Positions 24,513-44,734 of a stretch of 64,000 bases of DNA are shown here, one piece after another (positions within the stretch are counted from its first letter, which is position 1; each line of letters opens with the position of its first letter). Location: contig NZ_JAAIYP010000038.1 in the NCBI RefSeq assembly GCF_011022235.1, positions 124,001-188,000 of the forward strand. The letters run 5' to 3'. The stretch comes from Magnetospirillum aberrantis SpK (GTDB lineage Bacteria; Pseudomonadota; Alphaproteobacteria; Rhodospirillales; Magnetospirillaceae). Under the pieces are notes generated by a model that saw only the letters and a list, made by a program, of their open reading frames with translations, did not search any database and was not told the origin of the DNA. Both the position numbers and the translations under genes were made by a program.

Positions 24513-25931
24513 ATGAAACGACGCGCACCGCATTCTCACACCAACCGACCGGCCCGAACCGCCCGCCCGGCCCAAGCCACACGAGCTCATGACGAGGCGA
24601 CCCGCGCCTTGGCCGAGGGCGGGCACGCCTGGAGCGCCGGCAAGATCGAAACGGCGGCCACCGCTTTCGCCCATGCGGCATTGCTGGCGCCGGACATGGC
24701 CCAGGCCCATTCCAACCTGGGCGTCGCCTTGCGGAAGATGGGCCGGGTCGAGGCCGCGTTGGCCAGCTATCGCCGTGCATTGGCGCTGACCCCCGACGAT
24801 CCCGCGCTGCATTCCAACCTGGGCAACGCCCTGCGTGCCCTGGGCCGGCTGGCCGAAGCCGAGGAACACCTGTCGCGGGCCGTCGCCGCCCGGCCCGAGG
24901 ACCAGTCCTTCGCCTACAACCTGGCTCTGGTGATCCGCGACCGCCGCCGCCAGAGCGAAGCCCGGCAACGGCTGGCGGCGTTGTGCCAGGCCAATCCCGC
25001 CAACGCCGAGATGATCTGGGATCTGGCGCTGACCGATCTTTACCTCAAGGACTACGTCCGGGGTTTCGCCGGCTACGAGGCCCGCTGGCGTCTGCCCCGG
25101 CTGCAAGCGCGCGACCTGCCCGGCGAGCGCTGGCAACCGGGGGCGGCGACCGCCGGCAAGCGCGTGCTGATCACCGCCGAACAAGGTTTCGGCGACGCCT
25201 TGCAATTCGCCCGCTTCCTGCCGCTGGTGGCACGCCAGAGCGCCGAACTGGTGGTGGAATGCCAACCGGAACTGATGGAATTGTTCGCCGCCATTCCCGG
25301 CGTGGCGCGGATGGTGGAAAAGAACGCTCCCCTGCCCGCCCATGACATGTGGGCGCCGATGATGAGTCTGGCATGGTTGTTGGGGGTGACATGGGAGACG
25401 TTGCCGGCTCCCCGATCCTATCTGACCGCGCCGCGCAAGCTGGCATCCCCCTTGGGACGACCGCCCGGCACGCGGTTGAACGTCGGTCTGGTGTGGGCGG
25501 GCAAGACCACGCCGCGCGACCGTTCGTGGCCGTTGGAGGAGCTGTTGCCGTTGATGGAGGATCCGCGCGTCACCTGGTGGAGCCTTCAGATGGGCGAGCG
25601 GGCCGCCGACCTTGGTACGGTCGGCGCCGACCGTCTGGTGCGCAATCTGGCGCCCCGGCTTCGCAATTTCGCCGACACCGCCGCGGCCATGACCGAACTG
25701 GACATGGTGGTCACCATCGACAGCGGCCCGGCCCATCTTGCCGCCGCCCTGGGGCGGCCGACCTGGATCTTGCTGCGTTACGTTTCCGACTGGCGCTGGT
25801 TGGACGAAGGCGACACCTGCGCGTGGTATCCCTCCGTCCGCCTGTTCCGCCAACCCACCCCCGACGACTTCACCACCCCGGTCACGACGATGAAGGCGGC
25901 ATTGGACAAGGTGCTGGCGGGAATTCCTTAA
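24513..25931 (+). CDS. TPR protein with a GT9-like C-terminal domain
   Basis: 472 residues. About three TPR units occupy residues 35-140 (AHSNLGVALRKMGRVEAALA, ALHSNLGNALRALGRLAEAE). The C-terminal ~250 residues resemble heptosyltransferase-like glycosyltransferases: KRVLITAEQGFGDALQFARF, VGLVWAGKTTPRDRSW and VVTIDSGPAHLAAALGRPTW. Such proteins modify surface glycans or flagellin. The ATG at 24513 has GGGGGAGA upstream, so the frame from 24465 is too long. It converges on the holin gene with a few bases of overlap. Confidence 0.85.
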   Translation: MKRRAPHSHTNRPARTARPAQATRAHDEATRALAEGGHAWSAGKIETAATAFAHAALLAPDMAQAHSNLGVALRKMGRVEAALASYRRALALTPDDPALHSNLGNALRALGRLAEAEEHLSRAVAARPEDQSFAYNLALVIRDRRRQSEARQRLAALCQANPANAEMIWDLALTDLYLKDYVRGFAGYEARWRLPRLQARDLPGERWQPGAATAGKRVLITAEQGFGDALQFARFLPLVARQSAELVVECQPELMELFAAIPGVARMVEKNAPLPAHDMWAPMMSLAWLLGVTWETLPAPRSYLTAPRKLASPLGRPPGTRLNVGLVWAGKTTPRDRSWPLEELLPLMEDPRVTWWSLQMGERAADLGTVGADRLVRNLAPRLRNFADTAAAMTELDMVVTIDSGPAHLAAALGRPTWILLRYVSDWRWLDEGDTCAWYPSVRLFRQPTPDDFTTPVTTMKAALDKVLAGIP

Positions 25932-26362
25932 CGCGCCACCCCTGCCCGTTTCTCGCTGGTGCGCAGCCAGCTCATGCCGAGCAACGAGCCGACCAGCCCC
26001 AGAATGTCGCCGATGCCCATTTCCGGCATGGGCGGCAGGGTCTGTTGCCCCCAGGCGGCCTGCACCCAAAGCGTGGTGCCGACCACGAAACGCGGAATGT
26101 AGTAGACCGCCAGCGAGGCCGCGCACACCCAGCCGATGGCCGGACGCCAGCCGGCGACGAACACCGACGACGACGCGGCCTCGATCTTGTTCAGCTCGAC
26201 CTGCAACTCGTCTTGGTGCTGTTTCAGTTTTTCCAGAACAGCCTGGGCCTGCAAGCGTTCGTCGTCGCTGGTGAACAGCTTGTCGAACACGTTGCCCAAG
26301 GCCTCGATGGGTTTGGCGACGCTGTCGCCGCCAGCCCCCAGCAAGGTGGACAAAAGAGACAT
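25928..26362 (-). CDS. Holin of the 3TM gene-transfer-release type
   Basis: 144 residues: an amphipathic start, a charged helix (DERLQAQAVLEKLKQHQDEL), then the family hallmark SSVFVAGWRPAIGWVCAASL (about residue 62) and further hydrophobic helices. This matches the family named for the gene-transfer-agent holin of Rhodobacter, also found in prophages. It would permeabilise the inner membrane to release particles. Last gene of the particle cluster, five bases after the endolysin. Confidence 0.82.
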   Translation of the reverse strand: MSLLSTLLGAGGDSVAKPIEALGNVFDKLFTSDDERLQAQAVLEKLKQHQDELQVELNKIEAASSSVFVAGWRPAIGWVCAASLAVYYIPRFVVGTTLWVQAAWGQQTLPPMPEMGIGDILGLVGSLLGMSWLRTSEKRAGVAR

Positions 26363-26367
26363 CGTCC

Positions 26368-26832
26368 TTACTCCACGTCGTTGTAGAACAGATGGCTGCC
26401 GATCTCGGCCGAGGGGTCGCGCCCCTTGGCCCAATCGGGCATCAGGCCGCGCACGTGGTAATGGGTGGCCCCCCGCGTGGGATCGTCGAGGCCGCCGCCC
26501 ACCGCCCGGCGCGCCACCCGCAGACAGACGCGAAAGACCCGGTCGGCCTCGGTCACCCGTTCCAGTTTGGCGCGGTTGGGGTCATCGGCGTTCCAGCACG
26601 AGAACTGCCACTTCTTGCGGCACACCGTTTCCACGCTGTTCCCCCACCAGCCGCCCTTGGCCACCCGGTTCATCACCACTGCGGCCACCGCCTCGATGCC
26701 GCGCACGGACTCGCCCCGCGCCTCGCCCCACAAGGTGCGGGCCAGCACGTCCACGGCCGAGCCCGGCTTGGCCGGGGCGGTCTGGCTTTCGCTGTCGGGA
26801 TCGACATCGACGATCAGGATCGGCGCGGTCAT
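26368..26832 (-). CDS. SleB-type cell wall hydrolase, phage endolysin
   Basis: 154 residues with the Hydrolase_2/SleB pattern: LARTLWGEARGES (catalytic Glu), AVAAVVMNRV, the WQFSCWN stretch and ATHYHV near the end. It lacks a signal peptide, so it needs the adjacent holin to reach peptidoglycan. It overlaps the upstream small membrane gene by four bases. Confidence 0.88.
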   Translation of the reverse strand: MTAPILIVDVDPDSESQTAPAKPGSAVDVLARTLWGEARGESVRGIEAVAAVVMNRVAKGGWWGNSVETVCRKKWQFSCWNADDPNRAKLERVTEADRVFRVCLRVARRAVGGGLDDPTRGATHYHVRGLMPDWAKGRDPSAEIGSHLFYNDVE

Positions 26833-27131
26833 GCCCGCCCGCCCGCGCCGACGGCGTCCAACTTGGCTTCGATCCGCACCAGATGTTCGGTCAGGCGGCG
26901 TTCGACCTCGCGCAACGTGCCGGTGGTGGCATAGGTCTTGGCCACCTCCAGCTTGTAGGCGGCCAACGCCTCGCGCATCTGGCTGCCGGCCGCCTCGACC
27001 TTGTGGTCCACTTCGTCCAGGCGGGAATCGGCCTCGGTCCGCGCCCGCCAGATCAACACGAACAGCCCGCCAAGCGCCGGCAGTTCCACCGCCGACACCC
27101 ACCAGGCCAGATTAAGTCCCAGATTTTCCAT
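26829..27131 (-). CDS. Small phage membrane protein with coiled coil, spanin-like position
   Basis: 100 residues: one N-terminal membrane helix (VSAVELPALGGLFVLIW) and a long amphipathic helix with heptads (RLDEVDHKVEAAGSQMREAL, then LREVERRLTEHLVRIEAKLD). It sits between terminase and endolysin, where phages often place spanins or holin partners. The assignment is positional. Confidence 0.7.
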   Translation of the reverse strand: MENLGLNLAWWVSAVELPALGGLFVLIWRARTEADSRLDEVDHKVEAAGSQMREALAAYKLEVAKTYATTGTLREVERRLTEHLVRIEAKLDAVGAGGRA

Positions 27132-27142
27132 GGTTCCTGCTC

Positions 27143-28627
27143 CTATATCTCGAAATCGGTTTGTGCCAGCAAGCCCGCGCCCCCCGGCCGCCAGTCGCGG
27201 CGTTCGCCCAAGACGCCGCCAGCACGGCCAAGGCGCACCGGCTGCGACGCCAGACAGCCGGCGACGGCGTCCAGTCCGTCGTCGCGCCCACGCCCGCCGG
27301 GCCGCCATTCGCGCATCTCGGCGACGAACGGCGTCGCCCACACCGTGCGGTGGGCATGCAGCACTCCCGCCGCCAGCACGGCGTCGAAGGCATCGACGAT
27401 GCGTTGGTCCTTGGCCCGGCTGGAATGAATCTCGACCACCGCGCAGGGCAGACCGGCGGCCGTCATCTCACGCCGCAACAGACCGGGCAGGAAACGGCCC
27501 AGCCCGTTGCTTTCCAGCGTCACCGCCGGCAGATGCATCTCGCGGGCAAAGGTCACCACCTGCCGGCACAATTGGGTAGCCTCGTCCACCTCGCCCCAAT
27601 CGGGGTCGTGCTCCAGATATCGCACCCGGTGCAGCCAATAGCCGCCCTCGGCGTCGGTGAACACCGCCGCCACCACCGAGGCGTCGCCCTTGCCCGGCGC
27701 GCCGTAGGCCGGGGCCCACCAGCACGACGCCGACACCAACCGTTTGCCGTCCAGCGACAGCACCGGCTGGCCGTTGCCTTCGGCGTAACAAAGCTCGGCG
27801 TCGTAAAGCCGCAGCCGGTCGGGATCGAGCCGGCCGTCGGCGACGTTCACCGGTTTCAACAGCATCTGGCTGTCGAACTTGTTGGGGCCGGTGCGGCGCC
27901 GGATGGCCGCCACCTTTTCCGGCGGGAAGCGTTCGGGCCAGGCGCTGTGGCCGGCGGTGTCGAGCAACGGGATTTCCAGCCGCTCGAACCCGGCCAGAAA
28001 GGGTTGCGCCTCGCCGCTCTCAAGGCGCGGTTCGGCGGCGTAGATGGTGTAATAGGAATGGGGCGTGCCGACGTAAAGCTGGGCCCCGCCCGGCACCAGC
28101 ACATAGTCGATCTCGGCCAGCCGTTGGCGCAGGTCGGCCCGCTTGGGCGCGGTGTCGCAGGTGTTGGGAACCTCGACGTCGTCGCAGATGATGATCTCGG
28201 CCCGCGACCCGGTGATGTTGGCCCCGATGCCCTTGGCGACCATGGACGGGTCGCGCAGCTCGCCAGGGCGGTTGACGGTGAACTGGTCGCTGGCCCAATG
28301 CTCGCGACGTTTGGGCTTCAGCCCTTGGGTCAGGGGATGGCGTTCGATGATGCGTTTGACGTTGCGCACCATCTTTTTCGCCAGGGCGAAATCGGCGGCC
28401 AGCACCATGATGCGCAAGTCGGGATCGCCCACCAGCACCCAGGCGCAGAACAGCCCGACGATGGTGGACTTGCCCGACGAGCGAAACGCCATCAACAGCA
28501 TCTCGCGCCGATGCCCGCGCCAATGGCGGGCCAGCCAGCGGGCCATGCGCAGGTGGTGGCGCGGTGTGGTCTGACCCAGACGCGCATTCCACACCCAGAT
28601 GAATTCTGGAAAATCGACGGCGTTCAT
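27143..28627 (-). CDS. Phage terminase large subunit
   Basis: 494 residues. The packaging ATPase has LLMAFRSSGKST as Walker A (about residue 43) and AEIIICDDVE as Walker B; the C-terminal nuclease part has acidic motifs around LESNGLGRFL and DDGLDAVAGCL. The motor threads DNA into the head through the portal. ATG at 28627 is preceded by GGGGAGGAC. The gene lies after the fibre genes, as in T7-like phages; it looks full length. Confidence 0.92.
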   Translation of the reverse strand: MNAVDFPEFIWVWNARLGQTTPRHHLRMARWLARHWRGHRREMLLMAFRSSGKSTIVGLFCAWVLVGDPDLRIMVLAADFALAKKMVRNVKRIIERHPLTQGLKPKRREHWASDQFTVNRPGELRDPSMVAKGIGANITGSRAEIIICDDVEVPNTCDTAPKRADLRQRLAEIDYVLVPGGAQLYVGTPHSYYTIYAAEPRLESGEAQPFLAGFERLEIPLLDTAGHSAWPERFPPEKVAAIRRRTGPNKFDSQMLLKPVNVADGRLDPDRLRLYDAELCYAEGNGQPVLSLDGKRLVSASCWWAPAYGAPGKGDASVVAAVFTDAEGGYWLHRVRYLEHDPDWGEVDEATQLCRQVVTFAREMHLPAVTLESNGLGRFLPGLLRREMTAAGLPCAVVEIHSSRAKDQRIVDAFDAVLAAGVLHAHRTVWATPFVAEMREWRPGGRGRDDGLDAVAGCLASQPVRLGRAGGVLGERRDWRPGGAGLLAQTDFEI

Positions 28628-28683
28628 GCGCCGTCCTCCCCAGGGGGAGCAGGCATGGCAACCTCCTGTGGCGGATGTGAAAA

Positions 28684-28718
28684 GAAAACGCCCCGCCTTT
28701 GGAACCAAAGGCGGGGCG
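28684..28718 (-). terminator. Intrinsic terminator after the second fibre gene
   Basis: GCCCCGCCTTTGG and CCAAAGGCGGGGC form a 13-bp stem with a 2-base loop, followed on the minus strand by GTTTTCTTTTC. It separates the fibre genes from terminase and lysis genes. Confidence 0.85.
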
Positions 28719-34065: not shown

Positions 34066-35358
34066 TCAATACCCCGTCTTCGCGCCCATGAAATGCAGCG
34101 CGGTGGAGCCGTAGCCGACAAAAACCAGATAGTCGGTCTTGCCGACGGTGGAACTTAGAGCGGGCGAACCGTCGTCGCCCCAGGCGAAAGCCGCGCCAAA
34201 GGTCGGCACCCGTGCCGCCCCCGAATGGGTCAGGCGCAGTTGATAGACGCGGCCGTCCTCGATGTTGGCGACAGTGATTTCCGGGTTGCCGGTCATGATC
34301 AGCGCCGCCGCCGGCATGGCGCGCACGTCCCAGGTGATGGAAGCGGCATAGGCCAGCGGGGCAAAGGCATACCCCTGTGCCGCGCTCCAGGTTTGGGGCG
34401 CGTTCAGCCGCGCCAGGGTCTGGTCGTCGGGATTGACGATGGCCGTCCAACCGGTGACGCCGGCATTGGCGAACAAAGTGGCCGTGTCGAATTGCTGGAC
34501 GACCGCCAATGTTTCCTTGCCCTCGATATCGTCACCGCTGCCCTCCATCACACTTACGGTGACGGCGTTGTTTCCTGCATCCAGGCGGACGATGCCGACA
34601 CGCCAGTCGGCCACCAGGGACAGGGCGGACGGCAAGGTCAACACCACCGGCCCGGCACTGGCATCGACACGGAACATGGTGCCGTTATCGCCTTCGGTCA
34701 GGTGGCGATCGGCGACGACATCGACGACCACGGCGTAAAGATTCGACACCGCCGCCGATTGCGCGGCCAGGGCATAGGTTTGCGCGGCGGCGGCAGCCTC
34801 GGCGGCGGCGGCGGCGTTGGCGGCGGCCGAATGTTGCGCCGACACCGCCGATTGCATGGCTCCGCCCAACACGTCCGGGTCAAAGGAGGTATTCGTCACC
34901 CCCGATCCGTCGGCATTCCATTTCAACCCCCGCCCGGCAAGCGGTTCCGGCAGCGTCAGGTCGGCCGTGCTGGAACTGGTGAAGGGTCGTTGCAGACACC
35001 GCGACACCCCCTCGGCCACCTGCTGTACCGCCGCCACCTGGTAGTCTAGTTCGTCGTTCAACGTCTTGGCGCGGATGATGCCGTCCGCCTGAAAGTCGCT
35101 GACACGCTCCAGCACCATGTGGCGGCGTAAGGTAATCCGGGTGCCGGCGGCTGGCGGAATGGCAAACAGCACGCTTCCGCCCCCGGAAATACCCGCCCCC
35201 GACACGGTGAAACCACCCGACACCAGGGTTCCGTCCTGCCACACCTGAAGGTCGGCGGATCTGAGCACCGCGAAGGGATAGACGAAAGCGGTCTGGACGC
35301 CGTCGGCCACGTAATGGACGTTCGGCACCACCGCGTTGATATGGATGTGTTCGTTCAT
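34066..35358 (-). CDS. Phage tail fibre protein with T7 gp17-type N-terminus (first module)
   Basis: 430 residues. The N-terminal ~150 (VHYVADGVQTAFVYPFAVLR, LQVWQDGTLVSGGF, ITLRRHMVLERVSDFQADG) is the T7 fibre tail-attachment domain. An Ala-rich helix (about 175-205) leads to a beta-rich C-terminus. Start is ATG 35358; an upstream TTG is rejected. It lies 15 bases after the nozzle gene. Confidence 0.85.
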   Translation of the reverse strand: MNEHIHINAVVPNVHYVADGVQTAFVYPFAVLRSADLQVWQDGTLVSGGFTVSGAGISGGGSVLFAIPPAAGTRITLRRHMVLERVSDFQADGIIRAKTLNDELDYQVAAVQQVAEGVSRCLQRPFTSSSTADLTLPEPLAGRGLKWNADGSGVTNTSFDPDVLGGAMQSAVSAQHSAAANAAAAAEAAAAAQTYALAAQSAAVSNLYAVVVDVVADRHLTEGDNGTMFRVDASAGPVVLTLPSALSLVADWRVGIVRLDAGNNAVTVSVMEGSGDDIEGKETLAVVQQFDTATLFANAGVTGWTAIVNPDDQTLARLNAPQTWSAAQGYAFAPLAYAASITWDVRAMPAAALIMTGNPEITVANIEDGRVYQLRLTHSGAARVPTFGAAFAWGDDGSPALSSTVGKTDYLVFVGYGSTALHFMGAKTGY

Positions 35359-35373
35359 TTTATGTTCCAACCC

Positions 35374-37272
35374 TCAGTTGGCCACCTTCATTTCGGTGGC
35401 GACGGCCAGCACGGTACAAGGCAAGGGCACGTCCTGGGCGACACGCCACAGCGGCTGCATGGCGTCGCGGCGCCAGCCGATGGCGCGGACCTGCACGTCG
35501 CCGGAAAACAGCGGCGGCGCCGCGTCGAAGGCGTGGCGGCCGAACCGCCGGAAGGGGATTGCCGTCAAACCCTTGCCGGTGTCGAGATGCAGCGCCTGAG
35601 TGTCGAGCAGACGGAAATGGGCGCGCACCAGACGCATCACCGCCCCCGGCCCGGCACCGCTGGCGCTTTGCACCACCGGCGGCAGGGGTTCGATCTCGTG
35701 GGCATAGGACAACCCGACCTGAACGGTCTTCGCCGGTTCGGACAAGGTGACGGCACCGTTCGCCACCACCGCGTCCTCGATGGCGCCGCCATCGGCCAGG
35801 ATGCGCACGCTCTGGCCTTCCAGGTGGTCAAGGCCGCTCCAGGTCGCCTTGGCTTCCTGTGCGGTACCGGTCATGGCGCAATCCAAGGACAGCGTGTCGT
35901 CGAAACACTCGACCATCACGCCGCCCGCGCGTTCCACCAGCACATAGACCTCGCCTTCGACCACCGCCACCGAGCAAAAGGCGCCAAGAGTGGTGTGTCC
36001 GGCCCAGGCCGTGACCTTTTCCGAACGGTAGACGGTGACCGTCGCCAAGCTGCCATCGGCCATCACCACATGGAACAGCCGCCGGCCGGAATCGTAATCC
36101 TGGTCCACCGGCGCCACCATCAGGTGCTTGGCCAACATGGCAAGGTCGGTGGACTGATAGGCCTGCTCCACATCGGCGAACAGGAACTCGCGCAGGTCGC
36201 GGCCACCGCGTGACACGTAAAGCGTGGCGCCGTCCACGTCGCGCGGCGGCACCTGACGGTCCACCGGCGAGCCGACGCGGGTCTGCCGCGTCAACTGGAT
36301 ATTGGACGGCGTCAACGGATCCCCCGACACCATCCATTCCGCCCCCGAGGTGAACACCTGAAGATGACGCCCCGAGAACACCGCCCGAATAGCGTTGACC
36401 TGGTCGGACAACAAGGCGAATTCGATGGCTTCGTCATCCAGGGCCTCGCCCAGGTCGAAATTGAACAGATCCGACGATTTCGACATCCACAGCCGGTTTG
36501 GAAGGTCGCGCGAACCGCCGATGACCAGCCGATCCTGATGGAAACACACCGACACCGGCCACCCGCGCAGGGCGGAAAACGCCTGTTCCTCCCAATCGGT
36601 GTTGGCGGTGGTGTCCACCAGGGTCTGCTTGACCAGCGCGGTGGCCTGGGTGGACGAAGCGATTGCGGTGATCTCCACTTCCTTTTGCTGAAGGCGAAAC
36701 CGCAAACCCACATGTCCCGTCTGGAACACCTCGGCCGAAGCCGTCAAGGTCACCGTGCCCGACGTGCCCGATGGCTGCATCGTCACCGCGTCGTCGGCGA
36801 ATTTGTGGGTGGGCTGGTAGATCACCCCATCCTTGCCGTAGAAGCTCCACTCGGTGATGGTCCACTTGGTGTGCGACGTGCGGGTGATCTTGCGCGGGGC
36901 GACATCGGGATGGACCAGCAACAACGTATCGGCGGTCTGGCTCCAGCGCAGTTGCTGGATTTGATCGGTGCTCCACGGCGCATCGAAATCGGCCATCAAG
37001 GTGCCGTCGGCATAGACGTCCACATGGCCGTCGCTCAGCACCAGCAGATAGGTTTGTTCGGTGTTGAACTCGAAGGCGATCAGGCGTCCCGGTCCACGGG
37101 CGGTGGCGACGAAGCGCAAGCCGGGCCGGCGCGACACCCCGCCGACCGGGGCGATGGTGACGTTGCGCAGCCGCATGGCGCCATTGGCATAGGCGGTGAG
37201 GTCACCCCGCCCCAGCATGTCGAGACTGAGTTCGCCGGCGGTGAAGTTGGTCTTGGTCAAGGTCATGTTCAT
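35374..37272 (-). CDS. Tail tube/nozzle protein, T7 gp12-like
   Basis: 632 residues. Hallmarks of the family are NFTAGELSLDMLGRGDLTAY at the start, VGGVSRRPGLRFVA (about 40), VLSDGHVDVYADGT, GWPVSVCFHQDRLVIGGSRD and FTSGAEWMVSGDPLTP. A beta-propeller nozzle forms the tip of podovirus tails. The start overlaps the gp11-like stop by four bases. Confidence 0.88.
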   Translation of the reverse strand: MNMTLTKTNFTAGELSLDMLGRGDLTAYANGAMRLRNVTIAPVGGVSRRPGLRFVATARGPGRLIAFEFNTEQTYLLVLSDGHVDVYADGTLMADFDAPWSTDQIQQLRWSQTADTLLLVHPDVAPRKITRTSHTKWTITEWSFYGKDGVIYQPTHKFADDAVTMQPSGTSGTVTLTASAEVFQTGHVGLRFRLQQKEVEITAIASSTQATALVKQTLVDTTANTDWEEQAFSALRGWPVSVCFHQDRLVIGGSRDLPNRLWMSKSSDLFNFDLGEALDDEAIEFALLSDQVNAIRAVFSGRHLQVFTSGAEWMVSGDPLTPSNIQLTRQTRVGSPVDRQVPPRDVDGATLYVSRGGRDLREFLFADVEQAYQSTDLAMLAKHLMVAPVDQDYDSGRRLFHVVMADGSLATVTVYRSEKVTAWAGHTTLGAFCSVAVVEGEVYVLVERAGGVMVECFDDTLSLDCAMTGTAQEAKATWSGLDHLEGQSVRILADGGAIEDAVVANGAVTLSEPAKTVQVGLSYAHEIEPLPPVVQSASGAGPGAVMRLVRAHFRLLDTQALHLDTGKGLTAIPFRRFGRHAFDAAPPLFSGDVQVRAIGWRRDAMQPLWRVAQDVPLPCTVLAVATEMKVAN

Positions 37273-37838
37273 GACCGCACCTCGACCAACGGAAAGTCGG
37301 TGAGGGCCTGGGGCGTGTCCTGCTGCCCGTCGGCCAGTTTGGCACGGCGGAACTCGTCCTCGGCCAGCCTGAACAGCATCTCGGCCCGCGTGGTGCTTTC
37401 GGTCAGCGGAATACAGAACTCGGCGGCCAGACGCGCGATCAGGGACTGGTCGAAGAAAGGCGGGAACGACACTTCCTCGGGCCGGAACACATAGGTCAGC
37501 ACCAGATTGTCGACGTCGGCGTGCAGCCGGTTCTCGGCAATGCGATAGGACACGCCGAAACCGCGGCCGCCGATGCCCGCCGACAGCGCCCTCAGGAAAT
37601 CCGCCGGCAATTGGTAGGCGTAGGCGTAATCGGCCACCGGCGCCGTCACCAGCTGCGGCAAGGAAATCTGGCCGGTGGCGAAGTTCCACGGATGGGCCGA
37701 CAAAAGCGCGTCGCGGATGGACGGATAAAGGTTGGCCGCCACCTCGGCCTCGGCCGAGCCCTCCTCGAACGAGGCGATGGTGGCGGCTCCGATCTTCAGC
37801 AGCGCGCGCGAACAAAGAGCGATGGCCGACAACGCCAT
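37269..37838 (-). CDS. Tail tube/gatekeeper protein, T7 gp11-like
   Basis: 189 residues: helical N-terminus (AIALCSRALLKIGAATI, ASFEEGSAEAEVAANLYPSI), HPWNFAT, and a C-terminal helix. This is the classic gp11 pattern. It links the portal to the nozzle. Start ATG 37838 has GGAGATTCCGCC upstream. Confidence 0.87.
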   Translation of the reverse strand: MALSAIALCSRALLKIGAATIASFEEGSAEAEVAANLYPSIRDALLSAHPWNFATGQISLPQLVTAPVADYAYAYQLPADFLRALSAGIGGRGFGVSYRIAENRLHADVDNLVLTYVFRPEEVSFPPFFDQSLIARLAAEFCIPLTESTTRAEMLFRLAEDEFRRAKLADGQQDTPQALTDFPLVEVRS

Positions 37839-37856
37839 GGCGGAATCTCCTTTGCA

Positions 37857-37897
37857 AAAGCACACGGGCCGGCCTTCCCAAGGAAGCCGGCCCGTGT
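37857..37897 (-). terminator. Hairpin after the capsid genes
   Basis: ACACGGGCCGGC and GCCGGCCCGTGT form a 12-bp stem and a TTTT run follows on the minus strand. It likely lowers read-through from the abundant capsid transcript into tail genes. Confidence 0.8.
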
Positions 37898-38199: not shown

Positions 38200-39018
38200 T
38201 TACGATTCCAGGCAACGCAGGCTGACGATGCCGGCGGGGTCGACCAGCACCGCGCCCTGGCTCATCATGTTGTTGATGAACCAGGCGGCACGGTCGCCGT
38301 GATAGGTGATCTCGGACTTCACTTCCGAGCCGATGGCGTGGCCGATGGCGGTCTTGTGGAACCAGAAGCAGCGACGCACGTTGCCCGATTTGGAAAGCCC
38401 GGAATGGGGCATCCACAGCGTTCCCAGCCAGTGCTTGGCCTGGGTGCCCTTCCACGGCAGTTCGTCGGAACCGACATAGTCGGAATCGGCGAATTCCGGG
38501 ATCTGCAACAGGTCGGACCACTGTTTCCACCCCACCACGGCGGTCCGTTCGCCGTCGTCGGGGACGTCGGCCTCGCCCAGCATCTCGAATGCCGCCAGAA
38601 CCTTCTCCTTGGTCAGGCCGGTGGTGGCGTCGAGGGCGTGGTTGGTGGACTTGTCCAGTTCGGCGATGATCAACTCGTCGGTCTTGCGGCCAAGCGCGTA
38701 GGCGCCGGCGTTGACCAGGACGGCACGTTCGTCGTGCTCGATCTTCAATTCGTCCAGCTTGTCCAGCCAGTCGCCGGCGTAATAGTCGTAAAGCTGGCAT
38801 TCGACGGTCTGGTGATCGACATTCATCACCGGCACCTTGCCGTGGCGGGCCTTGGTGCTGGCGGCACCCTTGCCGACCTTCTGGAACACGGCGATGGCGC
38901 CGGTAACGTTGCTGCGCGCACGCACCACGTTGCGCAGTTTGGAGCCCTGGCGCTGATAGGCGGCATGCACCTGGGCGCCATAATCCTTGGAATAGCCGTT
39001 GATAACGGACGTGGACAT
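38200..39018 (-). CDS. Phage major capsid protein
   Basis: 272 residues, beginning MSTSVINGYSKDYGAQVHAA, with the N-terminal arm then the HK97-type core. KLDELKIEHDERAVLVNAGA and ATTGLTKEKVLAAFEMLGE are characteristic of capsid proteins of this podovirus type, as is the C-terminal run with WFHKTAIGHAIGSEVKSEI. ATG 39018 has AAAGGAA upstream. The annotated start keeps the arm and drops a long spurious upstream frame. Confidence 0.87.
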   Translation of the reverse strand: MSTSVINGYSKDYGAQVHAAYQRQGSKLRNVVRARSNVTGAIAVFQKVGKGAASTKARHGKVPVMNVDHQTVECQLYDYYAGDWLDKLDELKIEHDERAVLVNAGAYALGRKTDELIIAELDKSTNHALDATTGLTKEKVLAAFEMLGEADVPDDGERTAVVGWKQWSDLLQIPEFADSDYVGSDELPWKGTQAKHWLGTLWMPHSGLSKSGNVRRCFWFHKTAIGHAIGSEVKSEITYHGDRAAWFINNMMSQGAVLVDPAGIVSLRCLES

Positions 39019-39335: not shown

Positions 39336-40025
39336 ATGACCGAAACTGTGCAAGCCACTCGCACCACCGGCGCCACCCTGCGCACCGAGCGCATCGAGAG
39401 CCGCGCGAGCGCGTTGCTTTCCGATTGCCGCCGCGCCTTCCATGCCTTCGGCGAATTGGACGAGTTGGCGGAAAACCTGCGAATCCTGTCGCTCAACGCC
39501 GAGCTTGCGGCCGGCCGTGCCGGCGACAAGGGACGGGCGGTTCGCGCCCTGACCCAATACACCCGCGAACTGGTCAACCGCCTGGCCCAGATCCGCGGCG
39601 AGATGAACCAGCAGCGGGGGCGCACCGATACCCTGTCCACCCAGATCGAGGACGACCTCAAGCGCCTGCGCTCCATCGAAGAACAATCGGGCAGCGACAG
39701 CCCGGCTTTCGCCGAGTGCATGAAGGCGCTGGTGGACAAGCTCGACACCTTGTCCACCAACGTCGAGGATTTGTCGCGGCGCGCCCACGGCGTCGAGGAG
39801 GTGGTGAGCCAGTCGGACTCGATCGCCACCAACATCGCCATCGAGGCCGCCGCCGCCGGCGTCCACGAAAAGGAGTTCCGCACGGTGTCCGACACCATGC
39901 GCCGTTACGTGGACGATCTGCGCAAGATGATCGACGAGGCTTCGGACTCGGTCCGTCGCGCGCTGGAAAAGACCGAAGCCTTGCGCCGATTGGGCGTCGA
40001 GAACCTGAACGACCTGCGCCGCTGA
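39336..40025 (+). CDS. Chemoreceptor-signalling-like cytoplasmic protein inside the phage cluster
   Basis: 229 residues, almost entirely coiled coil, no membrane helix. Two stretches resemble the tip of a methyl-accepting chemotaxis protein: LRILSLNAELAAGRAGDKGR (about residue 48) and SIATNIAIEAAAAGVHEKEF (about 165). Both keep the NA-IEAA-AG rhythm. It lies on the strand opposite the head genes, 24 bases from the end of the scaffold gene. ATG 39336 has GGAG upstream. Candidate moron gene; role in CheA/CheW signalling is inference, and it could be a domesticated host gene. Confidence 0.75.
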   Translation: MTETVQATRTTGATLRTERIESRASALLSDCRRAFHAFGELDELAENLRILSLNAELAAGRAGDKGRAVRALTQYTRELVNRLAQIRGEMNQQRGRTDTLSTQIEDDLKRLRSIEEQSGSDSPAFAECMKALVDKLDTLSTNVEDLSRRAHGVEEVVSQSDSIATNIAIEAAAAGVHEKEFRTVSDTMRRYVDDLRKMIDEASDSVRRALEKTEALRRLGVENLNDLRR

Positions 40026-40049: not shown

Positions 40050-40772
40050 CTATTCCCCCGACAGGCGGCGAAAGCCCGCCGACACCTTGTCGATGAAGGC
40101 CGGATCGCGCTTTTTCCAATAACGCGGGTCCTGGAGCATGCGCTTCAGCTCGGCTTCATCCGGGGTGTCGTCCTTGGGCACCGGAGCCCGGCCCATGGCC
40201 GGCTCGCCCGAAGCCATCATCCGTTCCATGGCGATCACCCCTTCGGGAGAACAGGCCAAGGCCTGATAGACCTCGTCGGGCAGGTTGGCACGTCCCCAGG
40301 CGGACACCTGGCGCGCGGTTTCCGACCAGCGCGCGTCGCCGCCGTAATGGTCCTTGAGACGGTCAAGATGACGGCGCTGGTCGAAATCCTGGTTCAGACG
40401 CGCCAGCATGGGCAACACGCAATCATGGGCCAGGTCATAGACCAGTTGCGCTTGATCCGGGGTAAAACCGCCGGCATGCAGACGACGGTTGACCTCGGCA
40501 TCCGGGGTCAGCAATTCGTGCCGGGTGGCGATCTTGTAGCCATCGGGGCTGTCGGGGACGCCCAGGGCACGATGGAACGCGCAGCGTTCTTCGTCCGAGC
40601 ATTCCGGGCCGGGAACCTTGACCATGGCGTGCATGCGCCGTTCCAGTTCCAGATAGGCCGACAGCAAGGCGTCGGTCCGCAAGCCACCGCTGCGCGGGTC
40701 ACGGAACTTTTCCGGGATGGCCGGCGCGTCCAGCTCGGATTCGCCGGGATCAAGGGAATCTTCGTACAGCAT
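40050..40772 (-). CDS. Phage capsid assembly scaffolding protein
   Basis: 240 residues, acidic and helical. It has the podovirus scaffold layout: PIPEKFRDPRSG-like start (AIPEKFRDPRSGGLRTDALL), GVPDSPDGYKI and ending YWKKRDPAFIDKVSAGFRRL, the helical capsid-binding tail. ATG 40772 with AGGAG six bases upstream. It lies between the Bbp19-like and capsid genes, as expected. Confidence 0.85.
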   Translation of the reverse strand: MLYEDSLDPGESELDAPAIPEKFRDPRSGGLRTDALLSAYLELERRMHAMVKVPGPECSDEERCAFHRALGVPDSPDGYKIATRHELLTPDAEVNRRLHAGGFTPDQAQLVYDLAHDCVLPMLARLNQDFDQRRHLDRLKDHYGGDARWSETARQVSAWGRANLPDEVYQALACSPEGVIAMERMMASGEPAMGRAPVPKDDTPDEAELKRMLQDPRYWKKRDPAFIDKVSAGFRRLSGE

Positions 40773-40781
40773 CAAAATCTC

Positions 40782-41051
40782 CTAGACGATAGGGCCGCCC
40801 TGACGGCCGGTGCGAATCAGGGTTTGCAGATGCAGCACCAGTTGGCGCTGACCTTCCAGGCAGCGAAGCGCCGCGTCCGAGGCGTCCGGCCCCAGACAGC
40901 GTTCGGTGGTCAGTTGCGTGAGATAGGCCAAAGCGGCCTCGCCATCGGCGCCACGGAACATGCGGGCGAAAATACGGGCCAGACCAAGACGGCGACCGTC
41001 GTCCACCTCGTCCGTGGGTTCGAACCAGTCCCAACCGGGTTCAGAGGCCAT
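40782..41051 (-). CDS. Bbp19-like phage protein
   Basis: 89 residues with the pattern of the Bordetella phage Bbp19 family: GLARIFARMFRGADGEAALAYL-type start and the motif RCLGPDASDAALRCLEGQRQ. Role unknown; in phages it sits between portal and scaffold, as here. ATG 41051 after GGGAGG overlaps the portal stop by 11 bases. Confidence 0.78.
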   Translation of the reverse strand: MASEPGWDWFEPTDEVDDGRRLGLARIFARMFRGADGEAALAYLTQLTTERCLGPDASDAALRCLEGQRQLVLHLQTLIRTGRQGGPIV

Positions 41052-42576
41052 CGCCACCTCCCGCCGTCTGCGGTGCGGCCGGTTGCGCGGGCACCATCAA
41101 TTCGGCCGGCACGTTGAACACCCTGGCCAGCCACCGGGCTGCGGCACCGGCGTCCACCGCCTGGGCGGCGGTGCCGCCCACCTGCGACAGCGACGACAGC
41201 CATGTCAGCATGTTCATGGCGTCGCGGCGTGCCTGGGTCTGCGCCAAAGGCGAACGATAAGACAGATCCACGGTGTGGCCATCGACCAGCAATTCGGGGA
41301 TCTCGCCACGGCGACGCAGGATGGCCACGGCCCGCAAGATCAACGGCGTCAGCAACTCGCATTGCAGCCGGCCATAGGTGGCCCCCAACAATCGCGCCAT
41401 CTCGGCCGAACGTTCCAACACCTCGGTCGCGGTCATCTGCGGCGCGTCGGGCTGGCCCAACTTGTCGGCCAGCAGCGCGTGGCGGATACGCCCGCGCAAA
41501 TCGTCCAGCACCAGTTGCGAGATGTCGAAGCGCCCCGGTGCCTCGAGCGGCTGTAACCCGGCCGAGCCCACCGCCTTGGGAATGATGGTTCCAGGCACCA
41601 GCTTGATGTTGGCCGGATTAAGGACGCCGTCGTCGTCGGCCTGCCAGATGCCGGTCACCGCGATGGTGGCGTTCTTCAACACCAGTTCGACCACCTTGTT
41701 GACGGTCTTGATGTCGGGCAGCGCCTTCATCACCGGTGAACGGCCATAGGTTTCCCCAGGCGCCTTGAGCCAGCGGAAATTGATGAAGGGGCTTTGTTCG
41801 AAACGTCCTTCGGCCAGGACCGCCTCGTCCGCGTCCTCATCCTCCAGCACGGCGGCATAGTGGTAATAATGCCCCCCCGTCGCCGGAACCACCGCCTCGA
41901 CCAGGGCGAAACGGCGGTCGGGATCGTCCTCGGCCTGCTTGACCAGACCCTCCGGCAACGTCGCTCCGGGAAAGCGGGTCCGCAGGCCGGAGACGGTCAG
42001 TTCCGAACGGCGAAAGGTGGTGTCAAGCCGCCCGTCCACGCCTTCTTCAAGCACCACCTGCCCCAAGGGAACGGCGGTGAAGCGGAAAGCAGAGGCCTCA
42101 CCCGGCGGCGCTTCCTCGAACAACAACGCGGCGGTGCCGCCGGTGACCACGTCCAGATAGCACTGGTGCATTTCGACGGCGAAGTTGGAACGGTCGAAAT
42201 GCGATTGCAGCACCGTGCCAACCCGCTCCAGGACGACCGCCGCCGCCTCACGCTCACCATCGTCAAGATCCGGGCCGGCGGTCAGCCCGAACCATTGCGC
42301 CCACGGCGGCGTCAACTCGGACAACAGACTGGCGGCCAACTGGTCGACCGCGTCAGGCGCCGTTCCGTCGAACAGACGATCCCCTTTTTTCTCACCGGGA
42401 TTGGGAGCGGACAACACGGCATCGCGCAACGGCAGGGCGAAATCATAGCATTCCTGCCAATGTCCCTCCCATGTCGAGCGGCGCTGACGCGCCTTGGCAT
42501 AACGCCGCAGCAACGGCGCCGGGTCACGGTCAGGCCCCAGCAGGCCCGTTCCTTGGGAATGGCTGGTCATGGTCAT
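41041..42576 (-). CDS. Phage portal (head-to-tail connector) protein
   Basis: 511 residues. Recognisable blocks are WEECYDFALPLRDAVLS-like start (HWQECYDFALPLRDA), LTPPWAQWFGLTAG, GRSPVMKALPDIKTVNKVVE, and TATEVLERSAEMARLLGATY. These match T7-like head-tail connectors. The dodecameric ring is where the terminase docks. Its start overlaps the previous small gene by four bases. Confidence 0.9.
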   Translation of the reverse strand: MTMTSHSQGTGLLGPDRDPAPLLRRYAKARQRRSTWEGHWQECYDFALPLRDAVLSAPNPGEKKGDRLFDGTAPDAVDQLAASLLSELTPPWAQWFGLTAGPDLDDGEREAAAVVLERVGTVLQSHFDRSNFAVEMHQCYLDVVTGGTAALLFEEAPPGEASAFRFTAVPLGQVVLEEGVDGRLDTTFRRSELTVSGLRTRFPGATLPEGLVKQAEDDPDRRFALVEAVVPATGGHYYHYAAVLEDEDADEAVLAEGRFEQSPFINFRWLKAPGETYGRSPVMKALPDIKTVNKVVELVLKNATIAVTGIWQADDDGVLNPANIKLVPGTIIPKAVGSAGLQPLEAPGRFDISQLVLDDLRGRIRHALLADKLGQPDAPQMTATEVLERSAEMARLLGATYGRLQCELLTPLILRAVAILRRRGEIPELLVDGHTVDLSYRSPLAQTQARRDAMNMLTWLSSLSQVGGTAAQAVDAGAAARWLARVFNVPAELMVPAQPAAPQTAGGGDGL

Positions 42577-42776
42577 TCCCCCAACAACGTCTTGGCCGCC
42601 GACGCGACCGGATCAAGAGCGCCGCGATCGGATGTCGCCACCATGCCGGCCCGGCCCCGGCGATTGCGTGCCATGGTTTCCTGACGCTGTTCACGAGCCT
42701 CGGCCTCTGGATCGGTGGTCGAGATGACCGGTGGCGTATAGCTGGGAGCCGAACCACCCCCGAAAAAACCTCCCAT
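42573..42776 (-). CDS. Small Gly-rich phage protein preceding portal
   Basis: 67 residues: MGGFFGGGSAPSYTPP and a charged middle (EAEAREQRQETMARNRRG). It has no recognised domain. A GGAGG site five bases before ATG 42776 fixes the start; longer frames are rejected. Its stop overlaps the portal start. Confidence 0.75.
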   Translation of the reverse strand: MGGFFGGGSAPSYTPPVISTTDPEAEAREQRQETMARNRRGRAGMVATSDRGALDPVASAAKTLLGE

Positions 42777-42821: not shown

Positions 42822-42852
42822 AGCCCGGCCAAGTTTTCAGCTTGGCCGGGCT
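42822..42852 (-). terminator. Hairpin in the portal-operon leader
   Basis: AGCCCGGCCAAG and CTTGGCCGGGCT make a 12-bp perfect stem around TTTTCAG. No clean T run follows (TTCGCATTTTG), so it may be a weak terminator of the upstream two genes or a leader hairpin of the portal operon. Confidence 0.55.
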
Positions 42853-42883: not shown

Positions 42884-42911
42884 TTTATACCTCTAAACCA
42901 ACCGCTGTCAA
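42884..42911 (-). promoter_or_regulatory. Strong sigma70-like promoter for the portal operon
   Basis: On the minus strand, TTGACA (42911-42906) and TATAAA (42889-42884) are separated by 16 bp. The site overlaps the last codons of the preceding gene and would start RNA near 42877, ahead of the small gene and portal. A LexA box lies 8 bp upstream of the -35. Confidence 0.65.
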
Positions 42912-43307
42912 CATTTTTGTTCCTCTTTTGTTCAAGTGACGATACAGCTGCCACGGCGTCAGCACGAATCCGGCGCGAATTCCCAGGATGCGCTTGACGG
43001 ACTCGACGCATGAGTAAGGCCTTAGCGGCATAACTCTCCTTTCAGGAGAAAATTTATTGACAACAACGACCTTCATTTCGTGCTGCCGATACCACGACAA
43101 AAGATCAAATTCCTTGTTATGCGGAAAATGTACAACGAAGGTATAGTGGGACATGGGATCAACGACGACCCAGCCGGACGCCATTTCCAACGCCACGAAA
43201 CAATGCCTGAATCCAGGGCGCAACAATCGCAGCCACCATAGATCCGTGGCATGGGAGAACACGACCAAAGCCCGGTGCCACCCCCTTTCCACATCCCCCG
43301 CGCTCAC
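42885..43307 (-). CDS. Phage protein, probable permuted NlpC/P60 (papain-like) fold
   Basis: 140 residues. The order of catalytic-looking residues is His first (RPGFRHCFVALE, about residue 34) and Cys later (PYSCVESVKRILGI, about 100), the reverse of classical NlpC/P60, as in permuted members. WVVVDPMSH supplies a further polar residue. It could be a head maturation or cell wall cysteine hydrolase; the fold is inferred from pattern only. Its start overlaps the upstream gene by four bases. Base composition is poorer in GC than neighbours in the second half. Confidence 0.6.
   Translation of the reverse strand: MSAGDVERGWHRALVVFSHATDLWWLRLLRPGFRHCFVALEMASGWVVVDPMSHYTFVVHFPHNKEFDLLSWYRQHEMKVVVVNKFSPERRVMPLRPYSCVESVKRILGIRAGFVLTPWQLYRHLNKRGTKMLTAVGLEV
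42919..42933. promoter_or_regulatory. LexA (SOS) box, alphaproteobacterial type
   Basis: GTTCCTCTTTTGTTC fits the GTTC-N7-GTTC consensus exactly. It lies inside the end of the gene at 42885-43307 and just upstream of the TTGACA/TATAAA promoter, so it could control the portal operon. Repression from this offset position is an inference. Confidence 0.6.
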
Positions 43308-43669
43308 GCCACGATCCCCTTTCGACGCAACACCTCAGCCAGGCGCTCCAGCCCCTGACTCCACAGCTCCGCCTCGGTGGAACTGTCTCCACTCCAGGGA
43401 TCCGGCGGCGTCAGACGACATCCGAAGCCCCCCAGAACCTGAATGTGCCGAGCCCCCAGAACGCCCTTGCGACGCAATCCATCAACCGCCCGAAAAATGT
43501 CATCAGGGTCGCAAGGCCGCCCACGATCGCCAGCGTCGGCAACAAACCGCACCCCCTCGATCCGGGCCATCTGGCAACGGCAGAACCATAGCCAAGCCTC
43601 CTCGGCCGAAGCGAAGACCTCGGCCGGCCGCTCACTCAGCGGACGCGGAGCGAATTTCCCCACACCCAT
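43304..43669 (-). CDS. Unrecognised first gene of the particle operon
   Basis: 121 residues; notable segments are FASAEEAWLWFCRCQMARIE, GRPCDPDDIFRAVDGLRRKG and AEVLRRKGIVA, a mixed helical protein with a possible helix-turn-helix in the middle. I recall similar small proteins next to head genes in Rhodospirillales elements but know no function. ATG 43669 has GGAGGG seven bases upstream. A LexA box lies 20 bases upstream. Confidence 0.7.
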   Translation of the reverse strand: MGVGKFAPRPLSERPAEVFASAEEAWLWFCRCQMARIEGVRFVADAGDRGRPCDPDDIFRAVDGLRRKGVLGARHIQVLGGFGCRLTPPDPWSGDSSTEAELWSQGLERLAEVLRRKGIVA

Positions 43670-43688
43670 CGCGACACCCTCCAAACAA

Positions 43689-43703
43689 GAACATATATCG
43701 AAC
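43689..43703. promoter_or_regulatory. LexA (SOS) box in the promoter region of the particle operon
   Basis: GAACATATATCGAAC fits GAAC-N7-GAAC exactly, the alphaproteobacterial LexA target. It sits 20 bp upstream of the first operon gene, between it and the divergent S24 repressor; a TATAAT lies at 43740-43735 on the minus strand. Direct LexA control of the cluster is therefore likely. Confidence 0.75.
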
Positions 43704-43789
43704 ATTGATGCCTAGAGTGCGGCCTTGAGTCAAGATTATAGGCTGATATTCCTGTTGGCCTTAACCGGAGATTGCGAGACCATCTTCCC

Positions 43790-44422
43790 ATGCTGAAGCA
43801 CGCCGACATCTGGGCCGCCATCGACGCCCTTGCCCGTGACCACGGATTGACCGCGTCCGCCTTGGCGCGCCGAGCCGGGCTCGACCCCACCACCTTCAAC
43901 AAGAGCAAACGCATCACCCGCGAGGGGAAGCCGCGCTGGCCCTCCACCGAAAGCGTCGCCAAGGTGCTGGACGCCACCGGCGCCAGCCTGTCCGACCTGT
44001 TGGACCACATCGAAGGAGAGCACAGGGCGAACGGTGCCAATCACCTGCCGCTGATCGGTTTCGCCCAGGCGGGCGACCGGGGCTATTTCGATGACGCCGG
44101 CTATCCGGTCGGCGGCTCGTGGGACGAGATCCCGTTCCCGGAAGTGGGCGACCCCAACGCCTATGCGCTCGAGGTTTCAGGCGACAGCATGGAGCCCCTG
44201 TTCCGCGACGGCGACCGGGTCATCGTCTCGCCTTCCGCCTCGGTCCGGCGCGGCGACCGGGTCGTGGTCCGTACCCTCGAAGGCGAAGTGATGGTCAAGC
44301 AACTGGTTCGACAGACCGCCAAGCGCATCGAGCTGGCGTCGCTGAACCCAGCCCATCCCGGCCGCAGTTTGGCCACTGAAGAAGTTGCCTGGGTCGCCCG
44401 CATCCTGTGGGCCAGCCAGTAG
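43790..44422 (+). CDS. HTH repressor with S24/LexA-type peptidase domain
   Basis: 210 residues. The N-terminal HTH is LTASALARRAGLDPTTFNKS (about 21-40). The C-terminal S24 domain has Ser in SGDSMEP (about 133) and Lys in EVMVKQL (about 170), with a possible Ala-Gly cleavage site in FAQAGDRG (94-95). Like CI and LexA it could lose repression by self-cleavage under DNA damage. ATG 43790 is preferred to TTG 43772. It is divergent from the particle operon, though close relatives also occur as ordinary chromosomal genes. Confidence 0.88.
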   Translation: MLKHADIWAAIDALARDHGLTASALARRAGLDPTTFNKSKRITREGKPRWPSTESVAKVLDATGASLSDLLDHIEGEHRANGANHLPLIGFAQAGDRGYFDDAGYPVGGSWDEIPFPEVGDPNAYALEVSGDSMEPLFRDGDRVIVSPSASVRRGDRVVVRTLEGEVMVKQLVRQTAKRIELASLNPAHPGRSLATEEVAWVARILWASQ

Positions 44423-44436
44423 GCCCTGGACTTCTA

Positions 44437-44451
44437 GTTCGCTTTTTGTTC
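44437..44451. promoter_or_regulatory. LexA (SOS) box upstream of the 44462 gene
   Basis: GTTCGCTTTTTGTTC fits GTTC-N7-GTTC exactly and ends 10 bp before an ATG. It lies between weak promoter elements TGGACT (44427-44432) and TCTAAT (44450-44455), 17 bp apart, so LexA binding would block RNA polymerase; the mRNA would be nearly leaderless. Confidence 0.75.
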
Positions 44452-44461
44452 TAATTGGTGG

Positions 44462-44734
44462 ATGGATTTCACCCGCCGCGACATGTTGGAACGCCGTTAT
44501 GACGGCCCCATCCCCCCCGCCGACCCGGCCGCCACCATGGCCGCGACGGCGGGGCGTGTCCGGTTGTTCCTGCGGCTGGCGGCGGAAACGCGGGAAAAAA
44601 CAGCGACCCGCCGCTCGGAACTGAAAGCCGCCTCGGTCGCCGGCGACCGCCACCTCGGCCGCCTGCAACACGATTTGCGCCTCTATCGCGGACAAAGCGT
44701 GGCTTGGCACGACAACATCCCGGCGCGCCCATGA
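44462..44734 (+). CDS. Small SOS-associated protein of unknown function
   Basis: 90 residues, not recognised. It is strongly charged and mainly helical (VRLFLRLAAETREKTATRRS, then RHLGRLQHDLRLY), without membrane span or signal. High third-position GC supports coding. The LexA box and near-leaderless start mark it as a probable SOS gene; with the S24 repressor it could take part in turning on the particle operon, but that is inference. Confidence 0.65.
   Translation: MDFTRRDMLERRYDGPIPPADPAATMAATAGRVRLFLRLAAETREKTATRRSELKAASVAGDRHLGRLQHDLRLYRGQSVAWHDNIPARP

Follow-up and report, generated by a model that had tools for sequence, protein, structure and literature searches.

Predicted LexA and S24 repressor sites in a podovirus-type, gene transfer agent-like cluster of Magnetospirillum

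Introduction

Control of gene transfer agents (GTAs) has been described in several bacteria. In Caulobacter, RogA is a 213-residue LexA-like repressor of the GTA activators, with key cleavage residues reported missing and a trigger given as unknown (PMC9632790), and control also involves antitermination through GafZ (PMC11150451). In Rhodobacter capsulatus, LexA is needed for efficient production of the GTA (RcGTA) and acts through CckA (PMC6363796, citing Kuchinski 2016). Mitomycin-C-inducible particles containing random 10-kb pieces of host DNA are known from Azospirillum lipoferum and Azospirillum sp. B510 (PMC3899980, citing Boyer 2008). Here we analyze a 64,000-nucleotide stretch of Magnetospirillum aberrantis SpK (contig NZ_JAAIYP010000038.1, positions 124,001 to 188,000 of the forward strand), called the window, in whose coordinates all features are given. 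From about 25.9 to 43.7 kb, on the minus strand, it contains a gene cluster that encodes a podovirus-type particle, as judged by Pfam and PHROGs matches, and copies of GTTC-N7-GTTC, a LexA-type box, lie around the first genes of this cluster. Our comparison suggests, at a probability that we put at about 0.82, that the particle is domesticated and GTA-like, that the cluster is inherited with its host, and that it is under direct control by LexA and a CI-like (S24) repressor.

The locus would resemble the Caulobacter GTA (CcGTA, with RogA and GafYZ; PMC9632790, PMC11150451) in being a domesticated cluster with accessory genes elsewhere in the genome. Its S24 repressor, at 210 residues, has the same helix-turn-helix plus S24 architecture as RogA, and antitermination, which is part of CcGTA control, is suggested here as well. 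Unlike in RogA, the S24 cleavage residues are present and LexA-type boxes are found at promoters, and unlike CcGTA the cluster is podovirus-type. As with RcGTA, this would be an alphaproteobacterial particle with LexA-dependent output, but here LexA would act as a direct repressor of the particle genes. Siphovirus-type structural genes mark the RcGTA/CcGTA lineage; the families matched here by the portal, capsid, and terminase are podovirus-type. FpGTA of Faecalibacterium is likewise podovirus-type, GTA-like, and near-ubiquitous in its host group, but its host belongs to the Bacillota (PMC12946183). The Azospirillum particles were assigned to other, RcGTA-like regions (PMC3899980); in other Azospirillum species (L260, L266, L273, and L280), we found a box upstream of the S24 gene. 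The terms podovir, SOS, LexA, terminase, portal, and capsid do not occur in the paper on the Bartonella GTA, BaGTA (PMC6899734). In the excerpts of the open-licence PubMed Central literature, no description of this cluster or its LexA sites was noticed. By portal, HTVC010P-type Pelagibacter podoviruses rank with the nearest named phages, at only 32-35% identity. These are free lytic phages, unlike the cluster described here.

Results

Three copies of GTTC-N7-GTTC were found at exactly the coordinates that a first-pass annotation of this DNA had given, and the contexts it described were also borne out. Box 1 (GTTCCTCTTTTGTTC; 42919-42933, plus strand) lies within the 3' end of gp2, 7 nucleotides (nt) upstream of TTGACA-N16-TATAAA. 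Box 2 (GTTCGATATATGTTC; 43689-43703, minus strand) is placed 1 nt past the putative -10 element of the gp1 promoter, and it ends 19 nt upstream of the gp1 ATG. Box 3 (GTTCGCTTTTTGTTC; 44437-44451, plus strand) is in the promoter region of a 90-residue open reading frame, sm90. Both strands of the window together have 6 matches compared to 2.2 expected from shuffles (4/100 shuffles reach 6), so the roughly one chance match per window estimated previously was too low. The argument that three boxes in 1.5 kb are unlikely to be chance was suggestive but not decisive alone: at genome density, the P of three boxes in 1.53 kb is 1.5e-5 when a single interval is named, rising to 6e-4 over the window and to about 0.04 over the whole genome. 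A genome-wide scan had been named beforehand as a possible refutation, and matches were indeed frequent at random sites, with 124 in the whole genome compared to 108 for the reversed control pattern. Most matches are therefore due to chance, and the motif without conservation is no evidence. A narrower pattern that all three boxes fit, GTTCN5WDGTTC, is no rarer than chance either (20 genome matches compared to 29 for the control). We therefore take the comparison across species, rather than the motif in this one genome, to be decisive for the case.

The control region was compared between the window and 40 relatives, 41 loci in total, of which 36 had the whole region (L060, L064, L067, L070, and L071 were dropped), and GTTC-Nk-GTTC was counted at every spacing k from 0 to 20. 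In the gp1-S24 interval, a spacing of 7 was found in 15/36 loci and each other spacing in 0-1. Downstream of S24, at the sm90 site, the same spacing was found in 16/36 loci, again with 0-1 for each of the others. The portal-gp2 interval of the 36 loci had a spacing of 7 seven times, 20 four times, and the remaining spacings 0-2 times. Among loci of the genus with data, the window included, 11 of 12 have a perfect gp1 box and 10 of 11 a perfect sm90 box. Of 390 named loci found, the best 80 were taken, and these had the box upstream of S24 in 28/80 cases (any other spacing in at most 4) and after S24 in 15/80 (any other spacing in at most 2). From a viral collection, the best 80 of 213 contigs were taken, and the 50 with sufficient sequence before gp1 that were run through the script had the gp1 box in 24 cases, with other spacings (0-15) in at most 2. 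S24 homologues without gp1, gp2, or portal beside them had the box in 0/12 cases compared to 28/68 with such a neighbor (Fisher p 0.006). The strict 7-bp spacing and the conservation of position thus disfavor chance for boxes 2 and 3.

The link between the box and LexA was examined at promoters outside the cluster. The lexA promoter carries GTTCTATGCCTGTTC in 13/13 genus genomes. Two of 11 recA promoters have a pair of perfect boxes that overlap, offset by 11 bp, and the rest, including the one in this genome, have one-mismatch copies. GTTCN7GTTC is the LexA motif of Caulobacter, where two SOS genes have GTTCttgttatGTTC as their box (PMC12700426), and the same 15 bases are found at the sm90 site of one relative (L054). 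The window cluster has at its promoters the GTTC-N7-GTTC box expected of members of the alphaproteobacterial LexA regulon. An unlinked gene on another contig encodes a gp14-like protein of 138 residues, akin to phage internal virion proteins (phrog_418, expectation value (E) 1.4e-4; a Pfam search was without match), and in this genome it sits under TTGACA and a perfect box. Homologues were found in 44/98 genomes searched. A perfect box is just upstream of the gene in all 10 genus loci fetched, this one included; G001 and G003, with weaker matches, were outside the fetched set, and G009 had no match. In other genera, where the gene is often near the particle cluster, a box at the gene start was found in 0/20 loci.

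The S24 (LexA/CI-like) repressor gene (43790-44422, plus strand; Pfam HTH_26 and Peptidase_S24) is divergent from gp1, with sm90 next after it. Its cleavage site, Ala94-Gly95, and the Ser133 and Lys170 residues are invariant in 81/81 sequences. A 14-bp near-palindrome with the consensus AGGAATATAAACCT, which we call motif S, was found in 35/36 gp1-S24 intergenic regions; the copy in the window is AGGAATATCAGCCT (43740-43753, minus strand). At gp14 promoters, a matrix built from these copies scored above all background windows in 9/10 loci (0/61-70 each), and motif S starts 38-42 bp upstream of the gp14 box in 9/10 genus loci. The portal promoter has it in 7/9 congeners examined (scores 16-21; the window scores 8.3) and the sm90 promoter in 1/12 loci scored. 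The whole genome has 6 matches to the motif S pattern compared to 2 for the control. Two of these are the gp1 and gp14 promoters, and nothing promoter-like was read in the context of the remaining four. Motif S is probably the operator of the S24 repressor. Diverged second copies of S24 or capsid genes were seen in some genus genomes (L276, L201, L202, and L203).

One alternative is that the particle is not a GTA but a bacteriocin-like killer resembling PBSX. SOS control and lysis genes would suit a killer particle that is released, and PBSX itself is GTA-like yet injects no DNA (PMC12946183). A tail-only killer, however, needs no portal, scaffold, capsid, or large terminase; the first three are under selection here, and the terminase is present. 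The ratio of nonsynonymous to synonymous substitution rates (dN/dS) was 0.09-0.43 in 12 cluster genes compared with two congeners, a test that covered neither the terminase nor the lysis genes, and was 0.076 for the neighboring fabI (one congener having fabI there). We consider a killer particle unlikely, while giving it real weight.

Another possible explanation is a prophage under normal prophage control, either an ordinary SOS-inducible one or a defective one of recent origin. The cluster consists of phage genes throughout, and prophages are commonly under SOS control. One viral-collection locus, L317, taken from a metagenome contig of 37 kb, has gp1, gp2, portal, and capsid together with an integrase, a Toprim-domain protein, and an ORF6N protein. 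This single contig with an integrase among 80 means that the gp1 family includes prophages; the 20 kb of it that were read contain neither a divergent S24 homologue nor, within 140 nt of gp1, a box. Against a prophage stands the inheritance of the cluster. In a systematic search limited to PF00589 (tyrosine integrase), the nearest match was 79 kb away. The portal was found in 58/99 genomes searched and in 12/12 other genus genomes, and it diverges together with RecA (Mantel r 0.84, n = 27 genomes). The correlation with RecA distances was 0.83 for S24 (n = 25), 0.63 for the capsid (n = 16), and 0.64 for a tail protein (n = 13), the genomes missing from the last two having nothing at the E 1e-20 cut-off in the sequence fetched. 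In several congeners the particle genes are split over unlinked loci, and in the one-contig genome G007 the portal, capsid, and gp14-like gene are hundreds of kb apart. Of the viral-collection contigs with gp1, 79/80 are shorter than 26 kb, though they may be cut pieces. Three features expected of a GTA were found: purifying selection on the structural genes, vertical inheritance, and a cluster without a tyrosine integrase. A prophage is improbable.

Three other observations concern distribution. fabI adjoins the cluster in two genera. gp1 was found in 46/385 sampled genomes and 38/277 genera, and some of these genomes are near-complete at 0.9-1.5 Mb; G165, G284, and G377 are among the small genomes of the class with a gp1 homologue, where prophages are unexpected. 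The closest named phage by portal has 35% identity, and an unannotated 5-kb "Bacteriophage sp." sequence from human faeces (MT838907.1) has a portal that is 62% identical, far above any named phage listed.

The S24 protein itself, instead of LexA, could also be what recognizes GTTC-N7-GTTC, and the position of the box would fit, as 27/28 named loci with a box have it 92-110 bp before the S24 start. However, it is a different motif, motif S, that tracks S24; the sm90 promoter has the box yet motif S in just one of the loci scored; the lexA promoter has the box in all 13 genus genomes; and S24 genes lacking adjacent cluster genes never have it (0/12). Recognition of the box by S24 is thus distinctly improbable. 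That all three boxes are chance matches, as the genome-wide count and the genome-wide P might suggest, is hardly tenable given the strict spacing and positional conservation of boxes 2 and 3 in three partly overlapping sets, though box 1 may well be chance.

gp1 (43304-43669, minus strand), with which the particle operon begins, encodes a helical protein of 121 residues that had no match in Pfam, PHROGs, or NCBIfam. Its putative promoter, TTGACT-N17-CATCAA (43705-43733, minus strand), was read by eye. The AlphaFold model has four helices, with a predicted local distance difference test score (pLDDT) of 87. With Foldseek, Q21 (6p1c, 6jnx, and 6p18) had the highest template modeling (TM) scores among the 50 of 103 matches listed, 0.38-0.41, at an E of 4-6, which is not significant. 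The best E against a viral fold library was 0.07, and a profile search of solved structures gave nothing at E 1. A terminator-like hairpin with a T-rich tail is found in the portal operon leader (42822-42852, minus strand) by a hairpin rule of our own, and by this rule 15/24 loci have a hairpin between the portal promoter and the pre-portal gene. In a control with 20 loci, the lowest threshold gave 14/20 compared to 9 on the opposite strand and 4.0 in shuffles, and the strict threshold gave 7/20 compared to 1 and 0.15. A promoter and terminator scan listed a single promoter, that of the portal (0.5 in shuffles), and did not list the leader hairpin. As a hypothesis only, gp1 may be a Q21-like antiterminator acting at the leader hairpin, which the weak resemblance of its model to Q21 brings to mind.

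The remaining genes of the control region are small. gp2 (42885-43307, minus strand; 140 residues) has an alpha/beta model and an invariant His35-Cys36; it is without any family match, and a fold search gave nothing significant. sm90 (44462-44734, plus strand) is a conserved small protein with an ERRYDGPIP motif and no family match in Pfam, PHROGs, or NCBIfam. A sigma-70-type promoter, TTGACA-N16-TATAAA (42884-42911, minus strand), reads into the portal operon; the promoter scan instead reads TTGACA-N18-TAAAGT. Then follow, all on the minus strand, a 67-residue small gene before the portal (42573-42776), the portal or head-tail connector (41041-42576; PF12236, E 2e-153), a Bbp19-like protein (40782-41057; PF25181), a scaffold or T7 capsid-assembly protein (40050-40775; PF05396), the major capsid protein (38203-39018; PF19821), two tail tubular proteins (35374-37865; phrog_394 and phrog_376), a tail fiber with a phage N-terminal domain (34066-35358), the large terminase (27143-28708; phrog_38), a SleB-type cell-wall hydrolase (26368-26871; PF07486; its start codon is not settled, and 26395-26871 was scanned), and GTA_holin_3TM (25928-26362; PF11351; 25928-26395 was scanned). 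Appendage proteins are also encoded in the cluster. On the opposite strand, at 39336-40025, is a 229-residue chemotaxis-receptor-like coiled-coil protein whose matches are weak and below the cut-off; such a gene adjoins the capsid gene in 7 other genus loci examined too.

Some further perfect boxes were set aside. In L284-L287, a perfect box at the start of a 103-residue gene preceding SleB was judged a coincidence because it is made of the Shine-Dalgarno sequence GGAGAAC and the codons ATGGAAC. The same doubt extends to a perfect box in the window at 35353-35367, which is probably chance because the tail fiber start codon lies inside it. Boxes upstream of the capsid operon in 8 genus genomes (L176, L178, L179, L180, L181, L182, L184, and L198) were not counted as capsid control, being about 1.1-1.4 kb upstream of the capsid with a convergent gene between. 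Six of these contexts were read by eye and have the box at a TTGAC promoter, mostly with a hairpin downstream. Perfect boxes at TTGAC promoters were also seen at L121:7750-7764 and L122:6488-6502, and mostly there is a GC hairpin within about 100 nt. Such boxes with a hairpin are putative SOS-controlled small RNA genes; an Rfam search of L121, L122, and L284 found tRNAs only.

Discussion

In the mechanism we propose, two repressors, LexA and S24, would hold a chromosomal podovirus-type cluster off. LexA would bind GTTC-N7-GTTC at the gp1, sm90, and unlinked virion-gene promoters, and the S24 repressor would bind AGGAATATAAACCT between gp1 and S24 and before the unlinked gene, and in the 7/9 congeners also at the portal promoter. 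Upon DNA damage, RecA would trigger the loss of both repressors, and the particle genes would be transcribed only once both locks are open. We infer which protein binds which site, the RecA-driven cleavage, the order of these events, and host DNA as the cargo; the boxes, their spacing and conservation, motif S, the repressor residues, and the co-divergence with RecA are direct observations.

Several points weigh against this mechanism. Support for LexA control comes from sequence comparison, with binding and induction predicted only. Besides the unremarkable genome counts of both box patterns, a perfect gp1 box is found only in the 15/36 and 28/80 loci, and the 36-locus, 80-locus, and viral-collection sets overlap in species, the last with near-duplicates, so the counts are not independent. 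In a sister genus (g7), the gp1 box has decayed, and the sm90 box persists in some loci. The capsid gene in the window has no perfect box before it, and the lysis-gene boxes look coincidental. The gp1-S24 regions, searched with the string AGGA, were the source of motif S, and its presence there is therefore partly by construction. At gp14, motif S is not unique in L134 (2/68 background windows are as good) and has a weak score and a displaced position in L131. Also, a divergent S24 homologue is absent in 13 of the 44 viral-collection loci with enough upstream sequence, and L317 shows the family in a prophage setting.

Box 1 belongs among these points. Congeners have boxes 2 and 3 at the orthologous position, whereas box 1 is not conserved at its own. 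The closest relatives (L032 and L033) have only one-mismatch copies, and in L034, L035, L036, and L040 a box is found at a different site, where the small pre-portal gene starts. When the portal promoters were aligned by eye, the window had AGGAACAAAAATGT at the place of the congeners' motif S, AGGAAAATATACCT, and box 1 uses the AGGAAC of AGGAACAAAAATGT. Since it is not conserved and overlaps a decayed motif S, box 1 is doubtful and may be fortuitous or a decayed copy of motif S. The first-pass annotation had suggested a particle locus wired to SOS, with the S24 repressor as a second layer. This view gains support from the conserved box, the lexA promoters, the unlinked gene, and motif S, but box 1 at the portal promoter is a doubtful part of it.

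Direct LexA and S24 control of a host-inherited, GTA-like particle may be part of a larger picture. The cluster could represent an alphaproteobacterial lineage of podovirus-type GTAs unlike RcGTA, with a two-lock SOS switch at key promoters and gp1 as a Q-like antiterminator carrying transcription through the leader terminator into the portal operon. This picture as a whole is tentative, and we would give it rather less than even odds.

In the literature considered, the signals linked to alphaproteobacterial GTAs are stationary phase and quorum sensing, or are given as unknown. With LexA sites at the promoters of the particle itself, mitomycin C would be a simple inducer, and production, packaging, and transfer would become testable in cultured Magnetospirillum and Azospirillum. 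Cultured relatives with the module include Magnetospirillum sulfuroxidans J10 (L208) and M. moscoviense BB-1 (L220). The finding may also bear on the mitomycin-inducible Azospirillum particles with random host DNA. If the larger picture is true, damaged cells would package their own genome and release it to kin.

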